This document shows positions 1-9,455 of a stretch of DNA of 9,508 nucleotides, one piece after another. The DNA is taken from positions 1 to 9,508 of the forward strand of contig JAFGDV010000019.1 of the NCBI GenBank assembly GCA_016931955.1, written 5' to 3'. The position numbers and the translations under genes are program-made. The notes below the pieces were generated by a model that was given only the letters and a program-made list of their open reading frames with translations, was not told where the DNA came from and made no database searches. Each line of letters begins with the position of its first letter. Positions within the stretch are counted from its first letter, which is position 1. Source of the DNA: Candidatus Altarchaeota archaeon. Its GTDB lineage: Archaea > Altiarchaeota > Altiarchaeia > IMC4 > QMZM01.

Positions 1-120
1 AGATTGCTGAGGCTGCTGAGACTGCTGAGGCTGCTGTTGCTGAGGTTGAGGGGGCTGAGATTGCTGAGGCTGCTGAGACTGCTGAGGAGGCTGCTGCTGA
101 GGTTGAGGAGGCTGAGATTG
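1..120. repeat. 57-bp tandem repeat coding for Q/P/S tract
   Basis: Bases 1-57 and 58-114 are nearly identical, with about four mismatches, and a third copy begins at 115. The period of 57 bases equals 19 codons, so the frame is kept. The smaller internal unit is CTG/AGG triplets, giving Gln and Pro on the minus strand. The copies are recent enough to look like slippage or unequal exchange. Confidence 0.8.
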
Positions 121-198
121 CTGCACCAACACCTGCATCCGCGCGTCTAATTTCTTTTCTATGGCCTTTTTTAGTTGTTGTTCGTCGGCGGTCGTCAT
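1..198 (-). CDS. Gln/Pro-rich repeat protein, N-terminal part (cut by window edge)
   Basis: The frame is open from an ATG at 198 to the left edge: 66 codons, no stop. The first 26 or so residues (MTTADEQQLKKAIEKKLDAR...) are charged and probably helical. From about residue 27 it is almost only Gln, Pro and Ser (PQQSQQPQQSQPPQ style), encoded by a 57-bp tandem repeat. There is no signal peptide or membrane segment in the visible part, so it may be cytoplasmic. The ATG lies 4 bases after the TGA of the preceding gene (TGATAAGATG), which makes it the last visible member of the leftward pilin operon and suggests coupled translation. I do not recognise the family. QP-rich tracts are often flexible linkers, so a folded domain may follow off the edge. 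The reading frame is well supported; the function is unknown. Confidence 0.7.
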   Translation of the reverse strand, partial: MTTADEQQLKKAIEKKLDARMQVLVQQSQPPQPQQQPPQQSQQPQQSQPPQPQQQQPQQSQQPQQS

Positions 199-202
199 CT
201 TA

Positions 203-1027
203 TCATATAAGCCATATGTAGTCTTCGCGTGTTAGTTTATTCTCTAACCGCAAATAAATACTTGATGTTACCCCCACATCTTCTTCGACTTCCTCTAGGA
301 CTATGTTTGTTGTCACATGTCCTTGAGTGTTACCCGTCACCTTAGCAGTCATTGAACTGTCTCTGTTTTCGCCATCTATCATGTTTCCTCCGAAGCTCAG
401 GAATAGGCTGCAGTTGCAGTTCAAGAAGTTGAAGGTCCAAGAGGAGGTGTCGTTTCTGGCGACTGAGATTGAGCTACTGTGTTCGGTGTTCGCGAATTTC
501 GCGTTTATGACCACCTCCAAATCCCCTGAAGCGGATTGGTTTACCACACCTGCAAGGTTTTCGTCGAAGTCTATTTCTATCACGTATTTTTCTATCGCGG
601 CCGCGTCTCCGCTTTTATTGTATACTTGGATCTCTTCTTTGTCAAAGCTCGGATATCCATAGACTATGTCATATGGCTTTATCGTGAATCTTGGATCTGA
701 TAGGCCGGTTATGGTCAAGTCGGCTCCTATCTCTTGGGAGTAATGATCTTCTATGAAGTCTTTATAAAGGATCATCGTGTTTGCCCCGTTTTTCAGAGGA
801 AGATTATCTTTGAAGGAGACTGTTATGTGACCACCTGCCCGTTCTATGGAAGCAGAAATCCCAAGCATGTCTTCTACGTCTGTTTCTACGTCGTCGAATA
901 CGTTGCTGGCCTTCTCAGCCAATAGGTCTCTTGGAATTCTCTCTGTTGCGAAAAAACTAGCTAAGCTGACGATTGATAGCGATATCAGAATCGTCAATAT
1001 CGTGAACAGGAACCCCTTATTGTCCAT
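203..1027 (-). CDS. pilin-like secreted/membrane protein, 274 aa
   Basis: The N-terminus is a short charged leader ending in Lys-Gly (MDNKG), then a hydrophobic stretch at about residues 6-27 (FLFTILTILISLSIVSLASFF). This is the layout of type IV pilin-like proteins with a possible cleavage after Gly5, although the class III Gln is absent. The rest is a soluble, beta-rich looking domain with several N-glycosylation sequons (NKS, NQS, NDT, NCS) and a CNC pair near residue 205, consistent with an extracellular position. The ATG overlaps the end of the preceding gene by 11 bases. KGFLFT-type proteins beside other pilin-like genes occur in archaeal surface loci (family memory, not checked). A minor pilin or pilus-associated protein is an inference. 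The length is larger than a typical class III pilin. Confidence 0.75.
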   Translation of the reverse strand: MDNKGFLFTILTILISLSIVSLASFFATERIPRDLLAEKASNVFDDVETDVEDMLGISASIERAGGHITVSFKDNLPLKNGANTMILYKDFIEDHYSQEIGADLTITGLSDPRFTIKPYDIVYGYPSFDKEEIQVYNKSGDAAAIEKYVIEIDFDENLAGVVNQSASGDLEVVINAKFANTEHSSSISVARNDTSSWTFNFLNCNCSLFLSFGGNMIDGENRDSSMTAKVTGNTQGHVTTNIVLEEVEEDVGVTSSIYLRLENKLTREDYIWLI

Positions 1028-1406
1028 TATACCACATCCTCAGACTGGCGACATAGAATTGGGAGTTGGAGACAACCGATCTCTTGACGAGGGAACTCCT
1101 CTTAGGTTCCTCGCATTCGGAACCATAGTGGAACACTAACTCATTGTTTTGGTCCAGGATATCTAAGTCAAAACATAAGTCGTCAGGTAGAGAAGAACGC
1201 ATCTTCTCTACACCTATGGGGTCACCATCCACTGCCTTCCTTAGGTGGCCTTGTTTTTCTGCCACAGTCAACACATCCAAGGAAAGAGAGTATAGATGTT
1301 CTTCGTAGGATATCTTTGGTGTAGATACCAAGTATAGGGAAACAGATATTATCCCCAAAGCAACAGCCAACGCCCACATTGAATCTACTGTAAAGAGACC
1401 CGTCAT
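1017..1406 (-). CDS. small single-pass pilin-like protein, 129 aa
   Basis: A short N-terminus (MTGLFTVDS) leads into one hydrophobic segment at about residues 10-28 (MWALAVALGIISVSLYLV), followed by an exported domain of about 100 residues. Two cysteines (in LPDDLCFDLDI and YGSEC) could pair. The end contains RSVVSNSQFYVASLRMWYNG, a basic then beta-strand then WY ending that I associate with archaeal minor-pilin-like proteins; this recall is unverified. It starts 41 bases after the preceding stop and overlaps the next gene by 11 bases, so it sits inside the operon. A promoter-like sequence lies in that 41-base gap. A minor pilin or pseudopilin is the best guess; a plain membrane-anchored hypothetical is the alternative. 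Confidence 0.7.
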   Translation of the reverse strand: MTGLFTVDSMWALAVALGIISVSLYLVSTPKISYEEHLYSLSLDVLTVAEKQGHLRKAVDGDPIGVEKMRSSLPDDLCFDLDILDQNNELVFHYGSECEEPKRSSLVKRSVVSNSQFYVASLRMWYNGQ

Positions 1407-1435
1407 CTTCTGTTATCTTTTGCTCTTTCACAAAG

Positions 1436-1448
1436 AAATACTTTACGC
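1436..1448 (-). promoter_or_regulatory. possible internal promoter (BRE/TATA-like)
   Basis: The only real gap in the leftward operon (1407-1447) contains, on the minus strand, CGTAAAGTATTT. It shares the CGTAAAGT core with the promoter elements at 4826 and 4850. It is 30-40 bases upstream of the ATG at 1406, which would give a leaderless or near-leaderless transcript for the last three genes. It is inferred from sequence similarity and spacing only. Confidence 0.35.
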
Positions 1449-1945
1449 TAATAGTACAGTTTAAGGCTCAATCTGACCAGATTGTCTTCTAAGATCGCGT
1501 ATCTGTCGACGCGGATGTGTGACCTGTTGATGCTGTTTCCGAATGAGTACAGTGGAATCTCGTCGGCTCCCTTTACGTCGTGTATGAGCAGGTGGAAGTC
1601 TTCCCTGCTTAAGCCGAGAAGATCCCTCATCTGCTCATACTCGAATGTGTCAAATCTCTCCAGTTTGTCCTTATCCAAGACATTCGGCTGAGAAGAGAAT
1701 CCTACAGCGTAGACTGTGCTTGGATTCAGTGTATCAAGTTGCTCCCAGTTAGGCGGATTGCCGGGAGTTTTTACCAGCATCTCGGTTATATCCAGTCCCT
1801 TGTAGTAAGTCGACCTCCTGTCCTCGAAGTGGTTTATTTTGTTTGTCATCTCACCCCATGTGCCGATCATGACGAATAATATGAACAGGAATATGCCCGC
1901 AGCTATTACTAGATCGAAATTTGAGATCTGGGCTTTCTTATGCAT
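1448..1945 (-). CDS. pilin-like membrane-anchored protein, 165 aa
   Basis: The N-terminus reads MHKKAQISNFDLVIAAGIFL: basic residues, Ala-Gln, then a hydrophobic segment to about residue 29, resembling a type IV/class III prepilin leader although the usual E five residues after the cleavage Q is replaced. The exported part includes ITEMLVKTPGNPPNWEQLD, AVGFSSQPNVLDKDKLERF and RDLLGLSREDFHLLI, a pattern I associate with a recurring archaeal minor-pilin-like family next to class III pilins (recognition from memory). I chose the ATG at 1945, which overlaps the previous stop by 8 bases (ATGCATAA). An ATG at 1966 would add seven residues (MVQSTWK) before the leader and overlap by 29 bases. The role is probably a minor pilin or scaffold of the same surface structure. 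Confidence 0.75.
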   Translation of the reverse strand: MHKKAQISNFDLVIAAGIFLFILFVMIGTWGEMTNKINHFEDRRSTYYKGLDITEMLVKTPGNPPNWEQLDTLNPSTVYAVGFSSQPNVLDKDKLERFDTFEYEQMRDLLGLSREDFHLLIHDVKGADEIPLYSFGNSINRSHIRVDRYAILEDNLVRLSLKLYY

Positions 1946-2393
1946 TTTCCAAGTAGATTGTACCATTTATGTTGCTTATCTTGATGATTCCCGGATTTAG
2001 GTCTAATCCGTTCTGCGCACCATATATGTCCCTTGTCAAGGTCCTATGTGAGGGATTCCTCTCCTCTCTTATGGAGTAATTCAACATCACCATGCCAGGG
2101 AATACCTTTATTCCGTAGGCCCTTCCACCGTGGAGGGTTATGGGCAGCGTCACATACTTCACTGCGCCGTTTCCTGCCAGGTATTGGCTGTTTATCTCCT
2201 GCGCCAGTTTTTCTGCGACATGTTTTGAATTCAAGCCTTGTATGGTCTCTTCGGTTATCTTGTATTGTGTGTCGGCGTAATTCAATATAAAGGCGAAGAA
2301 GAACATTGCGATGATTATTGACACCAGGAAGTCCACTGAGACCTGGCCTCGTCTGTCCGTCTTACATGCAGCAGCAGTGTGTGTAGCCTTCAT
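1938..2393 (-). CDS. class III signal peptide pilin-like protein, 151 aa
   Basis: Residues 14-22 (RRGQVSVDF) fit the class III prepilin motif: basic residues, Gly, Gln17, Ser19 and an acidic residue at the E position (Asp21), directly followed by a hydrophobic helix to about residue 37. In Methanococcus such leaders are cut before the Gln by the peptidase EppA (family knowledge). The mature part has AEKLAQEINSQYLAGNG, LPITLHGGRAYGIKVFPG and MVMLNY, a helix followed by beta strands as in small archaeal pilins. The open frame extends to 2582, but that extension is low-complexity and antiparallel-free of leader features, and it lies inside the upstream gene. The ATG at 2393 puts the leader close to the N-terminus. 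This start overlaps the upstream gene by 32 bases. The A-rich MKATHTAAACKT prefix is unusually long for a prepilin leader. Confidence 0.8.
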   Translation of the reverse strand: MKATHTAAACKTDRRGQVSVDFLVSIIIAMFFFAFILNYADTQYKITEETIQGLNSKHVAEKLAQEINSQYLAGNGAVKYVTLPITLHGGRAYGIKVFPGMVMLNYSIREERNPSHRTLTRDIYGAQNGLDLNPGIIKISNINGTIYLENA

Positions 2394-4260
2394 CTTTGAT
2401 GCAGTAGGTGTTTCCGGAGAGCACATTATTCCAGCCGATGGAGCAATTGTTTTCGCAGTTCCAGCTGCTGTAGTTTTTATTAAGACATGCGTCCATGCAG
2501 CTGATATAGCAACAGCAGGTGTCGGTCGACGGCTCATGTATGCTACAGTATCTTTCGCTTCCGAAGGGGTTGTAGCCTTCATAGTTCATGTTGCATTCGC
2601 TCTGGTTTTCCCTGCACAATCCACTATAAAACTTGCTGTACTGACACCATTCGCCGCAGTCCTCCGTTGTCACGTTAACCACCAATGTGGCGTTAGTCAG
2701 TGCTTCACTTGTGACCGTTATATCCCCAGTATATACTCCGAGGGAGGCATTCTCCGGGACCTGGAGGATAGCGTTCTTGTACACGCAGGCAGACGGGGAC
2801 AGATCACCTAGGTTCTTCCCCTCCGGGAACAGTATCCAGTCGGCGGCTTCAGAGGTCGTTATCATGACACCATAAAGCTTAGTGTCACCTGTGTTGCATA
2901 TCGACAATACCTTGGTTTCCCGCCACCCAGCCCCGACCGAAGTATTCCACAAGTTGGGGGATATCTTCAGTATCTCCCTCCGCTTCACCCAGATGGACAA
3001 GTCCACGTACAATAGATCCGTGCCTGAATCTACCTTGACCTGCCCATAATAGTAGCCTTTGGGTAGATAAAAGGGCGGATAAACGCCTACTGTCGCTATT
3101 TCGCTGCCAAACGCAGGTATTGTTAAGAAATCTGGTTCTATGGTGACCCAACCCTGGATTATGGATCCGACAACGGAGAGGGTTACATTAGTCGCATTCT
3201 CCCCCTCATTGATGATCTCTATATCCCTGATATGGGGCGGAAGCAATGAAAACGTGTAGCAGTCAACGACCTCCATATAGGTCCCATTACCGCCTGCCGT
3301 GCCGTCTACGCCTGCAGAAGCCCCAGGCGAACCCCCCTCAACCAATGATTCCCCAGTGATATTCAAGGTGCAACCTACCAGCTTCACCCTACCACCTGAG
3401 CCGCCTCCGCCACCACCCCCACTACCTCCACCACTACCTCCAGTGCCCCCGCTTACGTCTATTGCGCCTGTGAAATTCAGCCTCGGTGATGCAAGTAATA
3501 CGCCACCTCCAGCGCCCCCTCCTCCACCACCGCCATCAGAGCCACCAGATACTAATCCATTACCCCCCGTCTGACCGCCACAGTCTATGCTCCCCTCTAT
3601 TGTTATGGAATGGGCTGCAACGATTTCTAATGCAGCTCCTCCGTCACCTCCCTTACCTCCGCCAGCAGCCTTAAAGCAGGAAGCTGCCCCGCCCCCTCCA
3701 CCAGAACCCATCCTAGCCTCATATGAGTCACTGGAGCCATATATTGAGCCCCCTAAACCCGGGATCCCTTTATTGCCTTTCTCGTTCCCTCCAACGCCAC
3801 CAGTTCCGCCATAGGCACCGCCGCCGCCGCCCGCACCCTCCACCTTGCTGCCAATTGAGTAACCCCCCTCGCCAGCACCTATCCTATCAGCCCGGTCCTT
3901 TGCCGGGCCGCCGTAGGGGTCTTCACCATCCTCACCGGGGTTGTTGCTGCACACCGTAGAGCCCTGACCCCCCACGTATCCACTGCCCTCGCCGATTATC
4001 TGTGAAGTGGAATCCACGTAAACCCTCAAGGCGTTAATCCTCAGCCTGCCCCCACCACCCACACCATGCTCCCCAACATGGAGTATTGCCCCATTCGTTA
4101 GATTCACCGTCTCATAGTTTTTGGTATCAGACAGAGTAGCTGTACCCCCGTTAAGGATAAGATCCACGGCGCATACTGTATGGGACAACAGTAACATAAG
4201 CCCTAACAGGAATGCGTACACAATCCTTCTTCCGCCTTCATTGGATATTGTCTTGACCAT
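2362..4260 (-). CDS. large secreted Gly-rich adhesin-like protein with Ig-like region and duplicated Cys-rich C-terminus, 632 aa
   Basis: Layout (numbered from the ATG at 4260): a Sec-type signal peptide (basic start, hydrophobic core 13-26, likely cleavage near Ala31); a short beta region; a Gly-rich region of about 66-326 with runs of up to eight Gly alternating with strand-like segments (ALEIVAAHSITIEGSIDCGG, GVLLASPRLNFTGAIDVSGG, GRVKLVGCTLNITG), suggesting a parallel beta-roll or helix; an Ig-like beta region of about 335-530 rich in N-glycosylation sequons; then a Cys-rich end with two copies of an eight-cysteine module (535-584, 588-631). There is no C-terminal membrane anchor or sorting signal. 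The ATG at 4260 sits one base after the preceding gene's TAA; an ATG at 4281 would add seven residues ahead of the signal peptide. It is the largest product of the pilin operon and most likely a surface adhesin or tip protein. That role is inferred. Confidence 0.85.
   Translation of the reverse strand: MVKTISNEGGRRIVYAFLLGLMLLLSHTVCAVDLILNGGTATLSDTKNYETVNLTNGAILHVGEHGVGGGGRLRINALRVYVDSTSQIIGEGSGYVGGQGSTVCSNNPGEDGEDPYGGPAKDRADRIGAGEGGYSIGSKVEGAGGGGGAYGGTGGVGGNEKGNKGIPGLGGSIYGSSDSYEARMGSGGGGGAASCFKAAGGGKGGDGGAALEIVAAHSITIEGSIDCGGQTGGNGLVSGGSDGGGGGGGAGGGVLLASPRLNFTGAIDVSGGTGGSGGGSGGGGGGGSGGRVKLVGCTLNITGESLVEGGSPGASAGVDGTAGGNGTYMEVVDCYTFSLLPPHIRDIEIINEGENATNVTLSVVGSIIQGWVTIEPDFLTIPAFGSEIATVGVYPPFYLPKGYYYGQVKVDSGTDLLYVDLSIWVKRREILKISPNLWNTSVGAGWRETKVLSICNTGDTKLYGVMITTSEAADWILFPEGKNLGDLSPSACVYKNAILQVPENASLGVYTGDITVTSEALTNATLVVNVTTEDCGEWCQYSKFYSGLCRENQSECNMNYEGYNPFGSERYCSIHEPSTDTCCCYISCMDACLNKNYSSWNCENNCSIGWNNVLSGNTYCIKDEGYTHCCCM
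2368..2658 (-). repeat. tandem eight-cysteine protein module (two copies)
   Basis: The coded protein repeats the spacing C-x3-C-x9-C-x(3,6)-C-x(13,15)-C-x(8,9)-CCC twice, 16 cysteines in about 97 residues. Both copies end in a triple cysteine, and the second ends the protein (CCCM, stop). The sequence between the cysteines has diverged, so the spacing rather than the DNA shows the duplication. Confidence 0.8.
3283..4065 (-). repeat. Gly-rich coding region (poly-Gly runs)
   Basis: On the plus strand this appears as long CCN/CCACC runs, for example around 3400-3440, 3500-3545 and 3810-3835, coding for poly-Gly on the minus strand. Its C content on the plus strand is clearly above that of its neighbours. 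The repeat unit at protein level is a strand segment of about 20-25 residues followed by a Gly-rich turn region. Confidence 0.75.
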
Positions 4261-4261
4261 C

Positions 4262-4732
4262 TTAGTCGATGTATACTGCAAAATTAAGCGACGTTGGATT
4301 CACCTTAAGTTTGGGTTCGCCTATGTAGACGCAGTTCCTCCTGCTCTGCATGTTGATCCAGTAGCTGCCTGAATAGGTCGGGACCTCGCCAACAAGGCAG
4401 GCGTCAGAGCATTCGTGTTTTTCATGGATCTCATCGCCGATGTAAAATCTCATGAATACGCAATTATCTGAGAGTATGATCTCCTGCACATCCTCCGGCA
4501 TGGTCACATACACCTTCGTTTTTGCGTTCTCGCCCTGAGAATGCACGAGGTTGGCTGCGTTGACTATGTCCTTTAAAGTAGCTCTTGCCTGAATGGATTT
4601 CACCGCCTCCTTTGACGAGATGTAGCTTTTCTGACCCATCGCCAGAAGGATTATGAAGACCACTAATACAGTGGATAATACAACCAAGAACTCAACACTG
4701 GTTTGCCCATTCTTCCTCAGAGTCTCAGACAT
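4262..4732 (-). CDS. class III signal peptide pilin-like protein, 156 aa (first gene of operon)
   Basis: The leader MSETLRKNG is followed by Gln10, Ser12, Glu14 (GQTSVEFL), an excellent class III prepilin motif, and a hydrophobic helix to about residue 32. Such proteins are exported, cut before the Gln by an EppA-type peptidase and assembled through the helix (family knowledge). The mature part has a helical segment (KSIQARATLKDIVNAANLV), beta strands (KVYVTMPEDVQEIIL) and four cysteines (91, 108, 112, 134) that could form two disulfides. The last residues, KLKVNPTSLNFAV, look like the opening strand of an Ig-like domain that then stops. The next gene starts one base after the TAA. A TATA-like element about 30 bases upstream of the ATG suggests a very short leader. 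It is probably a pilin or pilus-like subunit. Confidence 0.88.
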   Translation of the reverse strand: MSETLRKNGQTSVEFLVVLSTVLVVFIILLAMGQKSYISSKEAVKSIQARATLKDIVNAANLVHSQGENAKTKVYVTMPEDVQEIILSDNCVFMRFYIGDEIHEKHECSDACLVGEVPTYSGSYWINMQSRRNCVYIGEPKLKVNPTSLNFAVYID

Positions 4733-4825: not shown

Positions 4826-4840
4826 CGTAAAGTTTATAAA
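4826..4840 (+). promoter_or_regulatory. distal BRE/TATA element of the rightward pilin gene
   Basis: CGTAAAGTTTATAAA fits an archaeal BRE (C-R-N-A-A-A) followed by a TTTATA box. The expected start of transcription would be near 4860-4865. Its first 13 bases recur exactly 24 bases downstream. Confidence 0.6.
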
Positions 4841-4849
4841 GGAGAAGAG

Positions 4850-4863
4850 CGTAAAGTTTATAT
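4850..4863 (+). promoter_or_regulatory. proximal BRE/TATA element of the rightward pilin gene
   Basis: This is a second exact copy of the 13-mer CGTAAAGTTTATA, followed by T. Transcription would start near 4886-4890, leaving a leader of about 30 bases that contains the ribosome binding site. The two copies may be tandem promoters, or the upstream one may serve as a regulator site. Confidence 0.6.
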
Positions 4864-4915: not shown

Positions 4916-5371
4916 ATGGATAGGAAAGGACAAGCATCTGTCGAGTACCTTGTTATACTCGCAGTGGTCTTGATTATAGCCTTGGTTGTAGTCGCCGCCT
5001 TAGGTGGATTCATCAACATCGGAGGCCGGGCTGGATCGCAGGCGAGTCAGACCTACTGGAGGACAGCGGAAATAGGGCTCGCAGACTGGGTCATGAGTTC
5101 AGCTGGAAATGATACATTGGTAATTAAAAACAACATGGACTACAGGATCAGGGTTGTGAATGTGACGCTAATAGGCGTAGGTGGCGCAGAAGCAGTGGTT
5201 AACGTAGACCTTTCACCTGGAGCGACCGCGACTGTGTCAAGGGCTTGGTCAACCTGCACTTCAGGGAACCCCTTCAGCTATGACGTGACGTTTGAATACA
5301 CCAACTTGGACTACAACATAACAGGCAAGAGCTTTATAGGTGTATCGCCTATAGAAGGGAATTGCGCATAA
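4916..5371 (+). CDS. class III signal peptide pilin, probable major subunit, 151 aa
   Basis: MDRKG followed by Gln6, Ser8, Glu10, Tyr11 (GQASVEYL) is a textbook class III prepilin leader, and the helix continues to about residue 32. The mature domain has a WRTAEIGLADWVMS helix, then beta strands (DTLVIKNNMDYRIRVVNVTLIGVGG, VVNVDLSPGATATVSRAW), N-glycosylation sequons (NDT, NVT, NIT) and a likely disulfide between Cys114 and the penultimate Cys150. The gene is alone on its strand with duplicated promoter elements, a strong ribosome binding site and a T-rich terminator. This is what one expects of an abundant structural subunit, while the divergent operon carries the minor parts. The pilin class is clear; calling it the major subunit is inferred. 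Confidence 0.9.
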   Translation: MDRKGQASVEYLVILAVVLIIALVVVAALGGFINIGGRAGSQASQTYWRTAEIGLADWVMSSAGNDTLVIKNNMDYRIRVVNVTLIGVGGAEAVVNVDLSPGATATVSRAWSTCTSGNPFSYDVTFEYTNLDYNITGKSFIGVSPIEGNCA

Positions 5372-5378
5372 ACTTCCC

Positions 5379-5400
5379 TCTTTTTCTTTTTATTCTATTT
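5379..5400 (+). terminator. T-rich archaeal terminator after the pilin gene
   Basis: The stretch just after the TAA at 5371 is almost entirely T and pyrimidine (CTCTTTTTCTTTTTATTC). Archaeal RNA polymerase stops at such U-rich tracts without a hairpin. Some read-through into the ATPase gene 64 bases on is possible. Confidence 0.55.
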
Positions 5401-5435
5401 AAGCCCTTCTCTTTAATAAGTATACAGGAGAGAAT

Positions 5436-6146
5436 ATGGACGCAATACCGCCCAGTAGAGTAGCTACTGGAATACCCGGCATGGACGAGATGATCCAGGG
5501 AGGCTTGGAGAAGAACAGCAGCGTCTTGGTCGCAGGCACCTGCGGTACTGGGAAGACTACATTCTGCATGCAGTACATCTATAATGGAGCAATCCAGTTC
5601 AATGAGCCCGGCGTTTACGTCAGCTTTGAGGAAAAAACAGAGAAACTGAGAAAACACATGCTGAACTACGGCTGGGACCTGAAGGCGTTAGAGGACCAGG
5701 GGAAGGTAAGGATCCTGAGGATCGCCCCCAAGGAGGTGATGCACATAATAAAAGAGGAATACGGGGAGATACTCAACGCCATAAACGACATACAGGCTAA
5801 GAGGGTGGTCATAGACTCAGTAAGCAGCATCGAGATAATGATAGACAACGAATTCGACAGAAAAGAGAATGCGATAAAACTCTGTGAGTGGCTTTCCGGT
5901 CATGATTGCACTTCACTCATCATCTCAGAATCAGAGCAGGGCACAGTGCAGTACACACGGCATGGCATCATGGAGTTCGTAGTGGACGGCATAATCGTCC
6001 TCTACAATATAAGGAAAGGCAATACCCGAGTGAACGCGTTAGAGGTTCTTAAGATGAGGGGGACAAAACACGACAAATCATTGGTACCCTTCAACATAGA
6101 CAGGGGATTGACAGTATACCCCCAAGAACAGGTATTCACCGAATAA
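5436..6146 (+). CDS. KaiC-like RecA-superfamily ATPase, single domain, 236 aa
   Basis: It has the KaiC/RadA-like order: an opening RVATGIPGMDEMIQGGL, Walker A GTCGTGKTT (34-42), the paired acidic residues of the strand YVSFEE (Glu65, Glu66) that carry the catalytic Glu, Walker B VVIDS (124-128), and the C-terminal LKMRGTKHD motif typical of the family. KaiC itself has two such domains; this is one, as in many archaeal KaiC-like proteins and in ArlH (FlaH) of the archaellum. The Walker A carries Cys36 where Pro is usual (GGPGTGKT). The RBS is AGGAGAG, 3 bases from the ATG. It is soluble. The substrate or partner cannot be read from sequence. Its position behind a pilin gene makes a role in regulating or assembling the surface structure possible, but many KaiC-like genes have no known role. 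Confidence 0.88.
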   Translation: MDAIPPSRVATGIPGMDEMIQGGLEKNSSVLVAGTCGTGKTTFCMQYIYNGAIQFNEPGVYVSFEEKTEKLRKHMLNYGWDLKALEDQGKVRILRIAPKEVMHIIKEEYGEILNAINDIQAKRVVIDSVSSIEIMIDNEFDRKENAIKLCEWLSGHDCTSLIISESEQGTVQYTRHGIMEFVVDGIIVLYNIRKGNTRVNALEVLKMRGTKHDKSLVPFNIDRGLTVYPQEQVFTE

Positions 6147-6152
6147 ATATCG

Positions 6153-7028
6153 CTACATGTCTCCGACTTTCTCATAGCATATCCCTCTCCAGTCTAGATT
6201 GTCTACGCTTTCACATGTCGTCTGGTTTCCTGTTTTTTTCGCTATGAGCAGATGACACTTGTCCCTGTCGTCTACGGAGGACACACCCTTACACAAAATT
6301 GGATTGTTTTCCGCTAGGGCGCGGCAGTATTCTCTCTCCTCTTCCTTCGTAATCTTGTTGCAGTGTGCTGAGTCGTTGGTTATGGCACCGTAGCATTTGA
6401 GCTTCAAGTACAGGTACTCCTTCGAAACGTGTTCGCAGACCCACTGCTCTCCCCCCAGTATACCAACATAGCTTATACAGTAGTCCCTGAAGTAGGGTGA
6501 TGCAGTGATTTTTTCGCAGAGTGCTTCATCCTCTTTGAGGAATCCGAGGTTCAGGTAACACTCCGTCTGCGCATACTGACCGGATGTTATCCGATCACAG
6601 TATCTATGCTCTCTGGACTTTACTGCGAGGTCAAGATAGCATTGGTCTCTCTCCCTGTAGTCGACCACCTTCTCCGGCTCATCCTGCCAAGGCACTTCTA
6701 GGAAGGTTATCGTCGGCCCAATATATCTGCAGTTGTCTTCATAGGTTGGCTTAGTGGTTGAAGTCGACGAAGTCGTAGTGGTTGAAGTAGAGGATGTAGT
6801 CGAGGTAGTGGTTGTCGTCGAGGTTGTGGTAGAAGTCGATGTGGTCGAGGTAGTTGTGGACGTAGTGGTTGAGGTAGTGGTTGACGTAGTTGTCGTAGTA
6901 GTGGTTGAGGTAGTTGTGATAGTGATCGAAGTCGGCGAGAGCACGTCCAAAACCAGCGTGAAAAAAAGTAGAGACACAACAAATACTGTTCCTAGAAAAA
7001 AAACAGCCTTAACCATCTCAGACGCCAT
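6153..7028 (-). CDS. membrane-anchored protein with Ser/Thr stalk and Cys-repeat domain, 291 aa
   Basis: One hydrophobic helix at about residues 8-27 anchors the protein. Residues 38-92 are entirely Ser and Thr (55 in a row), which in archaeal surface proteins is usually an O-glycosylated stalk. The C-terminal part (100-291) has 14 cysteines spaced 11-14 residues apart after the first, in a repeated pattern: R-D-x-C-Y-x-x-(L/I)-A..., then C-x-x-(I/V)-x5-R-x-x-C. This makes about six units of 24-28 residues, each with two cysteines, probably helical hairpins joined by disulfides. Similar short Cys/helix repeats are common in DPANN surface proteins (unverified recall). The ATG at 7028 is about 25-30 bases from a TATA box, so the transcript is probably leaderless; Met5 (7016) is an alternative start. 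It ends 6 bases from the convergent KaiC-like gene. Function unknown. Confidence 0.8.
   Translation of the reverse strand: MASEMVKAVFFLGTVFVVSLLFFTLVLDVLSPTSITITTTSTTTTTTTSTTTSTTTSTTTSTTSTSTTTSTTTTTSTTSSTSTTTTSSTSTTKPTYEDNCRYIGPTITFLEVPWQDEPEKVVDYRERDQCYLDLAVKSREHRYCDRITSGQYAQTECYLNLGFLKEDEALCEKITASPYFRDYCISYVGILGGEQWVCEHVSKEYLYLKLKCYGAITNDSAHCNKITKEEEREYCRALAENNPILCKGVSSVDDRDKCHLLIAKKTGNQTTCESVDNLDWRGICYEKVGDM
6753..6917 (-). repeat. Ser/Thr-coding low-complexity repeat
   Basis: ACN and TCN-type codons alternate in short imperfect units (TTTS, TTTTTS, TSTTTS). On the plus strand it reads as GTAGTGGTTGAGGTAGT-like repeats. Units vary in length, typical of slippage-prone stalk regions, so length differences between strains are likely. 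Confidence 0.85.
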
Positions 7029-7525: not shown

Positions 7526-8179
7526 TCAACGTGGTGATATATCCTTGATTTCCACCTTCAGCGTATCCCCATCCTTCAGCTTGTGTTTCTCCCTCAGATT
7601 TTCCCTAGCTATGATCTCCAACTCCTTCTTATGGTGGGTGCGTTTAGGCAGGATAAGGAAGCAGTCCTCATACCAGCTGTCTCCAATCAAGGAAACCGGG
7701 ATGTACTTGACTTCGCCGAACATACGGTCACCCCTCCTAAAAGGCTTGATGACGCCGGAAACAAAACGCTCCAAGGAAGGGCAAAAACCAATGAGCTGAA
7801 GATTCAAGGTACCAAAAAACGGCTTAAAACCAAGTTGCTTCTCAAACAAAGGAGAATACTCGCAGACATAATAGGCGCCTTCCCCTATACCACTAACGAC
7901 CCTGCCCTCAACCACCAGAGGGAGAGAAGACTCAAAGAAATCATGCAAGCAGAGATAAAGCTCTCGGAGGAGAGAAACACCCTCAGAGGTTAGAGAAACC
8001 CTCCTGCCAGAATGAAAAATAAAGCCTCTGCGCTCTAATTCAGAGAGATAACGAGAAGCAGACTGCTGAGAAATGCCCAATAGAGAGCCGAGTTCGCTGG
8101 AGGAGATGGATAAAGAATCTGATTCAGACTTCAAACGCCTGCAAAGCTCAACAAGTACGAGAAGACAACGGTCCATCAT
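7526..8179 (-). CDS. ribK: CTP-dependent riboflavin kinase with N-terminal winged helix
   Basis: The protein converts riboflavin to FMN using CTP rather than ATP, the archaeal route. Residues 1-85 form a winged helix-turn-helix (SSELGSLLGISQQSASRYLSELERRGFI), as in archaeal RibK fusions that may also regulate genes. Residues 88-217 are the kinase: GIGEGAYYVCEY (97-108) matches the family's nucleotide/flavin loop, LGFKPFFGTLNLQL (116-129) carries the conserved G-T-L-N, and LPKRTHH (177-183) and LKDGDTLKVEI follow near the end. The length of 217 fits the fused form (about 220). Its ATG overlaps the tfb stop as ATGA; a second ATG is next to it (8176). No ribosome binding site is seen, so translation is likely coupled to tfb. 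The identification is firm; DNA binding by the winged helix is inferred. Confidence 0.9.
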   Translation of the reverse strand: MMDRCLLVLVELCRRLKSESDSLSISSSELGSLLGISQQSASRYLSELERRGFIFHSGRRVSLTSEGVSLLRELYLCLHDFFESSLPLVVEGRVVSGIGEGAYYVCEYSPLFEKQLGFKPFFGTLNLQLIGFCPSLERFVSGVIKPFRRGDRMFGEVKYIPVSLIGDSWYEDCFLILPKRTHHKKELEIIARENLREKHKLKDGDTLKVEIKDISPR

Positions 8180-9123
8180 ATATCAAGGTCAAGGGCGCGT
8201 GCCAGTTCTTCATAACGGTTACGGATGGTGACTTCAGTAACACCGACAAGCTTACCGGCAATACCCCTCTGAGTCTGCTTATCGTCGGTGATCTTACCAG
8301 CCAGATAGATGGCTGCCGCTGCAACACCCGTAGGGCCCTTGCCAGAGATTATACCCTTCTTAGCGGCCTCCTCGAGGATTTCAATGGCTTTGGCCTCAGT
8401 ACGGCCTGAAAGGCCCAACTCAGAGGCAAACCTTGGAACATAGTCTATGGGGGTTGCAACAGGCATCTTCACGTCCAAACGACGACACACAAAACGATAA
8501 CTGCGACCTATGTCCTTGCGCTTAACACCCGAGGCCTCCTCCAGCTCCTCCAAGGTCTTCGGGAGATGATGCTTTCGTGATATAAGGTAGATGACGGCTG
8601 CGACAACGCATTCGATGGAACGCCCTCGGACCAACCCCTTGGAGACAGCGCGACGATACCACATCGCACACTCCTCCTTGATGTTGTTGGGTATGTTGAG
8701 ATAGGCGCACATCCTGTCAAGCTCAGGCAAAGCAATAGATAGGTTGCGTTGAACGGAATCAGACATCCGAGAACGACGCTGCCACTTACGAAGGCGATAA
8801 AGCTGAGCCTTCCGCTCAGGTTGGATAGCTCCGCCGCGGATGTCGCGGTCATAGCGGTCTATCTCAGTAGTCAAGCCCTTATTCAATTTAGCATAACGTA
8901 CCAGGCCACCGGTGCGGGAGCGGCGACTCTTCTGGTCTTCATCAAAGGCTCGCCATTCTGGCCCAAAATCAAACATTGCATCCTCTAAGACGAAACCACA
9001 TTCACGGCAGACTATCTCGCCATGGGAATAATCAGTATAGAGATTACTGCTCGCACAATGGGGGCAGACACCCTTCGTTTTCTCGGCTGAATCCCCCTCA
9101 AATGAATCCTCAAACTCGTTCAT
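8176..9123 (-). CDS. tfb: transcription initiation factor TFB
   Basis: This general factor (TFIIB homologue) bridges the TBP-TATA complex and RNA polymerase and reads the BRE. The zinc ribbon uses Cys20, Cys23, Cys39 and Cys42 (CPHC...CREC). The B-reader/linker follows with GPEWRAFDEDQKSRRSRTGG (54-73) and NKGLTTEID. Two cyclin repeats cover about 122-210 and 216-308, the second with the helix-turn-helix GIAGKLVGVTEVTIRNRYEEL that contacts the BRE. The 315 residues are the normal length and no key residue is missing. The start ATG overlaps the gar1 stop as ATGA and the stop overlaps ribK the same way. gar1-tfb adjacency is a known conserved archaeal arrangement. It seems to be the ordinary TFB rather than a diverged paralogue. 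Confidence 0.97.
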   Translation of the reverse strand: MNEFEDSFEGDSAEKTKGVCPHCASSNLYTDYSHGEIVCRECGFVLEDAMFDFGPEWRAFDEDQKSRRSRTGGLVRYAKLNKGLTTEIDRYDRDIRGGAIQPERKAQLYRLRKWQRRSRMSDSVQRNLSIALPELDRMCAYLNIPNNIKEECAMWYRRAVSKGLVRGRSIECVVAAVIYLISRKHHLPKTLEELEEASGVKRKDIGRSYRFVCRRLDVKMPVATPIDYVPRFASELGLSGRTEAKAIEILEEAAKKGIISGKGPTGVAAAAIYLAGKITDDKQTQRGIAGKLVGVTEVTIRNRYEELARALDLDI

Positions 9124-9338
9124 TTTATTTCCACGGTTTTACCAGGCACGCAACCGCCAGAAAGCCTCACGACAAATAAAGGACTTTCCACACTGCCGAT
9201 TACGTCAAAAACCCTGCCAATCTGCCTACCGTCACAGAAAACCGGTTTGCCCAGAAGCCCGCTGATAGAGTATTTTGGAATTACGGGCGATACAGTCGCC
9301 ATATCACCCACACATGAAGTGACTTCTCCCAGTTTCAA
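9120..9338 (-). CDS. gar1: H/ACA RNA-protein complex component Gar1
   Basis: Gar1 binds Cbf5 in H/ACA RNPs that guide pseudouridine formation in rRNA. At 72 residues it is the minimal archaeal form: a small beta barrel with KLGEVTSCVGDMATVSP, GKPVFCDGRQIGRVFDVIGSV (core G-R-V-x-D-V-I-G-x-V) and SPLFVVRLSGG, lacking eukaryotic Gly/Arg arms. The start is TTG at 9338. It is the only start codon in frame here, with GAGGGTG five bases upstream; an ATG at 9353 is out of frame. It is the first gene of gar1-tfb-ribK, and its stop overlaps the tfb start. Confidence 0.92.
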   Translation of the reverse strand: MKLGEVTSCVGDMATVSPVIPKYSISGLLGKPVFCDGRQIGRVFDVIGSVESPLFVVRLSGGCVPGKTVEIK

Positions 9339-9411: not shown

Positions 9412-9455
9412 ATAAATAAAGAAAAAAATAAACTTCCCCGCCCTGAAGGGCGGGG
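9412..9455 (-). terminator. GC hairpin plus T-rich tract
   Basis: Bases 9436-9455 form a perfect 8-bp stem (CCCCGCCC/GGGCGGGG) with a four-base loop. On the minus strand it is followed by AAGTTTATTTTTTTCTTT, the form of an intrinsic terminator for a transcript entering from the right. GC-rich palindromes of this type also occur at the ends of archaeal IS200/IS605 elements. Confidence 0.6.

Follow-up and report, generated by a model that had tools for sequence, protein, structure and literature searches.

A conserved type IV pilus operon in an Altiarchaeota genome, with a putative split pilin-adhesin

Genes of the window

The stretch of DNA analysed here (the window, 9,508 bases) is an entire contig, C33, of a genome bin of 46 contigs and 1.55 Mb. 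Seven leftward frames with overlaps or gaps of at most 41 bases were found at coordinates that agree with a first-pass annotation, and since other archaea carry orthologues of five of them in matching order, they are genes and not chance frames. All on the minus strand, they comprise a class III minor pilin of 156 aa (g1, 4262–4732), a secreted Gly-rich protein of 632 aa from the ATG at 4260 (g2, 2362–4260), another class III minor pilin (g3, 1938–2393, RRG/QVSVDF), a minor pilin with an alternative start possible at 1945 (g4, 1448–1966, KKA/QISNFD), a minor pilin-like protein (g5, 1017–1406, G/LFTVD), a large minor pilin without an acidic residue before its hydrophobic helix (g6, 203–1027, NKG/FLFTIL), and a frame that is open at the contig end (g7, 1–198). 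Facing them on the plus strand are a predicted major pilin of 151 aa (4916–5371, RKG/QASVEYL) and a KaiC-family ATPase (5436–6146), a candidate regulator.

A 13-base direct repeat, CGTAAAGTTTATA, lies upstream of the major pilin (4826–4838 and 4850–4862, plus strand, starts 24 bases apart), and is a possible promoter or operator element. A scan for sigma-70-type promoters, a model not apt for archaea, returned hits at chance level, and an Rfam search gave no match.

The facing gene, already called a class III pilin in the first-pass annotation, scores above the Pfam Class_IIIsignal cut-off, and is alone among the pilins in doing so; since the others are too divergent for Pfam, comparison with relatives was needed. 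The g1, g3 and g4 proteins and their homologues share [GA]/Q...[ED] before the helix. Homologues of the major pilin are 147–172 aa long, and a PDB profile search with it gave weak matches, the best to a DUF4352-named protein (E = 1.4e-5), with pilin- or flagellin-named entries next (E = 0.01–0.3).

Gene order in related genomes

A search with g4 gave matches in 31 of 61 genomes, and synteny was assessed using per-gene profiles from three rounds of search. The order g1-g3-g4-g5-g6-ATPase-TadC1-TadC2 is present as a single run in G022, G018, G058, G047 and SI047_bin88, with one to three extra genes inside the run in G018, G022 and SI047_bin88, and the same run extends in G024 from g1 until the contig ends inside TadC2. 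Orthologues of the major pilin follow TadC2 in G022, G058, G047, SI047_bin88 and others, KaiC genes adjoin g1 or sit at the 3' end in several related operons, and a MinD-type ATPase is encoded within the operon in G022 and, as judged from sequence, in SI047_bin88. The pilin block of Micrarchaeota is divergent from the ATPase gene, and the protein at the g5 position is 941–1244 aa long; the pilin set also lies beside the ATPase in a Nanohaloarchaea locus (L103).

The operon type, counted where the ATPase core is more than 50% identical along its full length and a pilin block also exists, is present in 5 of 29 Altiarchaeota genomes (the window genome G000, G018, G022, G023 and G024), pilins and ATPase lying on different contigs in G023. 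Among these 29 genomes, the window genome is the only one of its own family to carry it, and a search of the same-genus genome G001 did not find the operon. The first-pass annotation had proposed an operon for a surface appendage in which several minor pilins surround one large, secreted, Gly-rich protein, a description borne out by the frames and by the relatives' gene order, and it had made this proposal depend on conservation of that order; g1-g3-g4-g5-g6 does recur in other archaea. The cluster belongs to a type IV pilus operon whose conservation, in Altiarchaeota and DPANN relatives, reaches far past the genus.

Contig ends and the motor and platform genes

Repeats lie at both ends of C33. 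The right end carries a perfect hairpin, CCCCGCCCTGAAGGGCGGGG (9436–9455), which occurs five times without mismatch in the genome. The four copies whose distance to a contig end was computed (on C4, C6, C7 and C33; the fifth is on C45) lie at most 150 bases from one, and the hairpin is probably part of a mobile-element repeat where assembly breaks. The left end is a Q/P repeat. Because both ends of the window are contig ends, its lack of ATPase and platform genes is uninformative about the operon.

The Q/P repeat was searched for genome-wide, and is present only at the left end of C33 and within bases 1–180 of contig C41 (12 of 12 matches). C41 opens in frame at base 1 inside QPPQQQPPQ..., and downstream of this stretch follow winged-helix-like segments, a T2SSE ATPase (the frame spanning C41:1–2463, E = 9.1e-31), and two T2SSF platform genes of one domain each, TadC1 (C41:2435–3352) and TadC2 (C41:3349–4347). 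No exact overlap between the ends of C33 and C41 was found; such an overlap can be missing when assembly stops within a repeat. Since intact relatives show the same gene order, and since the repeat is otherwise absent from the genome, the join of C33 and C41 in one operon is a strong inference from sequence. The g7 frame, described in the first-pass annotation as a complete Q/P protein, is instead read as the beginning of the C41 secretion ATPase, comprising its N-terminus and the first part of its Q/P linker, cut by the contig end.

The linker between the N-terminus and the winged-helix-like region of this ATPase (L067, G000:C41 1–800) is long and Q/P-rich, with at least 35 residues on C33 and about 63 on C41, and Iainarchaeota orthologues likewise have long low-complexity N-termini.

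The ATPase of C41 shares 63% identity with its G022 counterpart, and an ATPase tree, built with no Epd reference, pairs the two (99/94 support). The enclosing group (99/99) comprises operons of Altiarchaeota, Micrarchaeota and Diapherotrites/Iainarchaeota, and excludes the other two ATPases of the window genome sampled in the tree. The closest solved structure is 2oap from Archaeoglobus fulgidus (E = 3.1e-82), with FlaI next and CpaF weaker.

That a PilB-type ATPase and platform seem to be missing is an artefact of assembly, the break lying within the repetitive part of the motor gene. The machinery that the first-pass annotation had suggested looking for elsewhere in the genome was found as the T2SSE/T2SSF set on C41, together with three loci for A24 prepilin peptidases, and its supposition that assembly would rely on distant machinery or on another mechanism is contradicted by the ATPase and two platform genes of C41, which in relatives are directly downstream. 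Profile matches in the genome number seven each for T2SSE and T2SSF, and include at least two further ATPase systems of the same superfamily (C14, C9/C19). A stand-alone appendage operon whose pilins use the type IV pilus machinery of C14 or C9/C19 would be in keeping with these additional systems, and with the point made in a survey of archaeal pili (PMC4858521) that an ATPase/TadC set can act on pilins in trans, but C41 starts inside the very repeat that ends C33, and in relatives with the same pilins an ATPase and a TadC pair of the C41 type follow immediately, making this arrangement very improbable. An operon devoid of machinery is rejected on the strength of C41 together with synteny.

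Minor pilins and the filament tip

The residue preceding the first uncharged 14-residue run of each pilin was scored by script as acidic when it was D or E. This residue is acidic in g1 (18/18), g3 (25/26), g4 (30/30), g5 (11/11) and the major pilins (15/15), the sole g3 protein missed by the script (L089) having D by eye. Not one of the 20 g6 proteins has an acidic residue there. In bacterial filaments, the subunit without Glu5 caps the tip complex (PMC10191384). Because archaeal pilins often have no Glu5 (PMC4471445), its absence is by itself weak evidence in archaea, and assignment of g6 as tip cap rests on the contrast within the system. We lean slightly towards g6 being the predicted cap, by analogy with the bacterial subunits. 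It could also be merely an atypical pilin, with all five minor pilins located at the filament base or along its length, as in the model drawn for archaeal type IV pili by Makarova et al. 2016 (PMC4858521); the loss of the acidic residue is, however, confined to g6 and complete there, which is the pattern of bacterial cap subunits (PMC10191384), and we consider that placement somewhat unlikely.

The g1 and g2 proteins

Relatives encode fused g1 proteins of 366–740 aa, in four cases a pilin joined to two Ig/PapD-like domains. Aligned to a profile of four fused g1 proteins, window g1 covers positions 3–147, and g2 covers positions 209–338 (E = 4.8e-18) without overlap with the g1 piece, while nine single-domain g1-type proteins stop at 131–135. 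Past the single-domain stop, window g1 still follows the fused proteins over some 15 residues, and then ends after the first Ig1 strand, its last 15 residues (LKVNPTSLNFAVYID, 4265–4309, minus strand) matching the first strand or strands of Ig1 in the fused homologues. The remaining Ig1, Ig2 and Cys-rich parts lie on g2, behind a signal peptide and a Gly-rich region (37% Gly over residues 96–330), with Ig1 starting at about 3261, Ig2 at about 2979, and Cys-rich modules at 2664 and 2505. A modular pilin in one chain is seen in homologues and not in the window, where it is split over g1 and g2.

A model of the G022 fusion (mean pLDDT 75) contains a 59-residue helix, a pilin head and two Ig/PapD-like domains, with the first Ig strands at residues 136–147, matching the end point of window g1; solved PapD/ASH-type domains align to this fusion from residue 133 onward. 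In Foldseek/VIA searches, the Ig part matches Ig folds of the PapD/ASH/MSP type, and since this fold is common, the matches give no function. The AF2 model of g2 has a mean pLDDT of 47 and is poor except for Ig2, with values below 50 for Ig1 and of 25–35 for the Gly-rich region, and it is weak over the Cys-rich module as well.

Taken from their sequences, g1 and g2 look like a split pilin-adhesin, the adhesin being predicted, and a pilin-adhesin fusion has apparently been converted to a two-protein arrangement. We judge that g2 probably belongs to the pilus. The split is so far seen in one genome, and Gly-rich stretches like that of g2 also occur in unrelated exported Altiarchaeota proteins (G004, G007, G010), as expected if g2 were unrelated to the pilus, a secreted or cell-wall protein whose gene had come to lie between g1 and g3 and which had acquired Ig and Cys domains by chance; we find this unlikely, since the g2 ATG is one base past the g1 stop, its Ig half corresponds to the missing C-terminal half of the relatives' g1 fusion, and a separate secreted Cys-rich protein is encoded in two more related operons (L034, 327 aa; L042, 505 aa and more). 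If g2 does belong to the pilus, the strand kept by g1 might complete Ig1 of g2 and clamp the adhesin at the pilus tip by strand complementation. This is a speculation that we hold to be doubtful; were it true, the trick of chaperone-usher pili would be at work in a type IV pilus.

The Cys-rich C-terminal module (C-x3-C...G-x-C...CCC) occurs twice in g2 (2365–2664), its C-x3-C...G-x-C core being seen by eye. In G022, near-identical copies end both g1 and g6 (L033:2763–3998 and 5349–6362), and the module is also found in exported proteins of G005, G011 and G001.

Proposed working and comparison with known systems

In the reading that we consider quite probable, the window holds the pilin half of a single type IV pilus operon, g1-g2-g3-g4-g5-g6-ATPase-TadC1-TadC2, with the major pilin and KaiC genes divergent, and the pilus works as follows. 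The prepilins would be cleaved by one of the three A24 prepilin peptidases present in the genome. By sequence and bacterial analogy, g3, g4, g5 and g6 would prime the filament, with g6 capping the tip, and by homology, the major pilin would polymerise below them, driven by the ATPase and a two-subunit platform. The g1 protein would be the pilin that in relatives bears the adhesin-like part as a fusion, here placed on separate Sec-secreted g2; g1 may tether this protein at the tip or close to it, possibly via the Ig1 strand kept in g1. The likely function is attachment to surfaces or cells.

The first-pass annotation had not recognised the composition as a known pilus operon. The core of pilins, ATPase and platform is in fact a known type, described by Makarova et al. 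2016 (PMC4858521), and the split of g1 and g2 is the part that does remain unusual. With the archaeal two-TadC pili of that survey (clade 1/Epd and clade 2), the operon shares a secretion ATPase, two single-domain platform proteins, class III minor pilins, a stand-alone major pilin, and nearby KaiC and MinD-type ATPases; it differs in a major pilin of 151 aa instead of about 70 in Epd/Tad-like pili, in a secreted tip candidate without a DUF2341 match, and in the Q/P-linked N-terminal extension of its ATPase. In the sections of the survey that were consulted, no mention is made of a five-minor-pilin set g1-g3-g4-g5-g6. Clusters of Nanohaloarchaeota and Undinarchaeota likewise hold a VirB11-type ATPase, TadB/TadC and kaiC in DPANN archaea (PMC9563170), but their pilins were left unannotated, whereas the pilin set is identified here beside the ATPase. 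A pilin set is now assigned to a group of type IV pilus machines in DPANN archaea and Altiarchaeota, including Nanohaloarchaeota, where pili are suspected of host attachment (PMC9563170). A literature search with most subscription journals outside its reach found no description of Altiarchaeota type IV pilus operons.

The modular pilins PilB and PilC of Streptococcus sanguinis (PMC8179133, PMC9934059, PMC10191384) carry a grafted module, as does the relatives' fused g1, whereas the window has the module in a secreted protein distinct from the pilin, and the module's adhesive role is putative. The bacterial PilHIJK/GspHIJK tip complex with PilY1 (PMC10191384, PMC7541494) also combines a minor pilin set, one large Glu5-less member and a non-pilin secreted protein, a likeness seen in set composition and residue pattern. 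The prediction is that assembly of these archaeal pili begins, as in bacteria, with a tip complex whose capping subunit lacks the acidic residue, in contrast to the published model (PMC4858521), which places minor pilins near the base. Altiarchaeal hami are surface appendages of the same phylum (PMC4460559); no feature supporting a link to them was found, and their proteins resemble S-layer proteins, unlike the type IV pilins here.

Other genes of the window

The gene at 6153–7028 encodes a single-pass protein with a Thr/Ser-rich stalk and Cys repeats. It was ruled out as an operon-specific part, since it belongs to a multicopy family with 19 genome matches on 8 contigs; one family copy lies on C41 soon after TadC2. 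A separate leftward cluster at 7526–9338 encodes a CTP-dependent riboflavin kinase with an HTH domain, TFIIB, and a 72-aa Gar1-like protein; TFIIB homologues near archaeal type IV pilus loci, like the KaiC association, are reported in PMC4858521.
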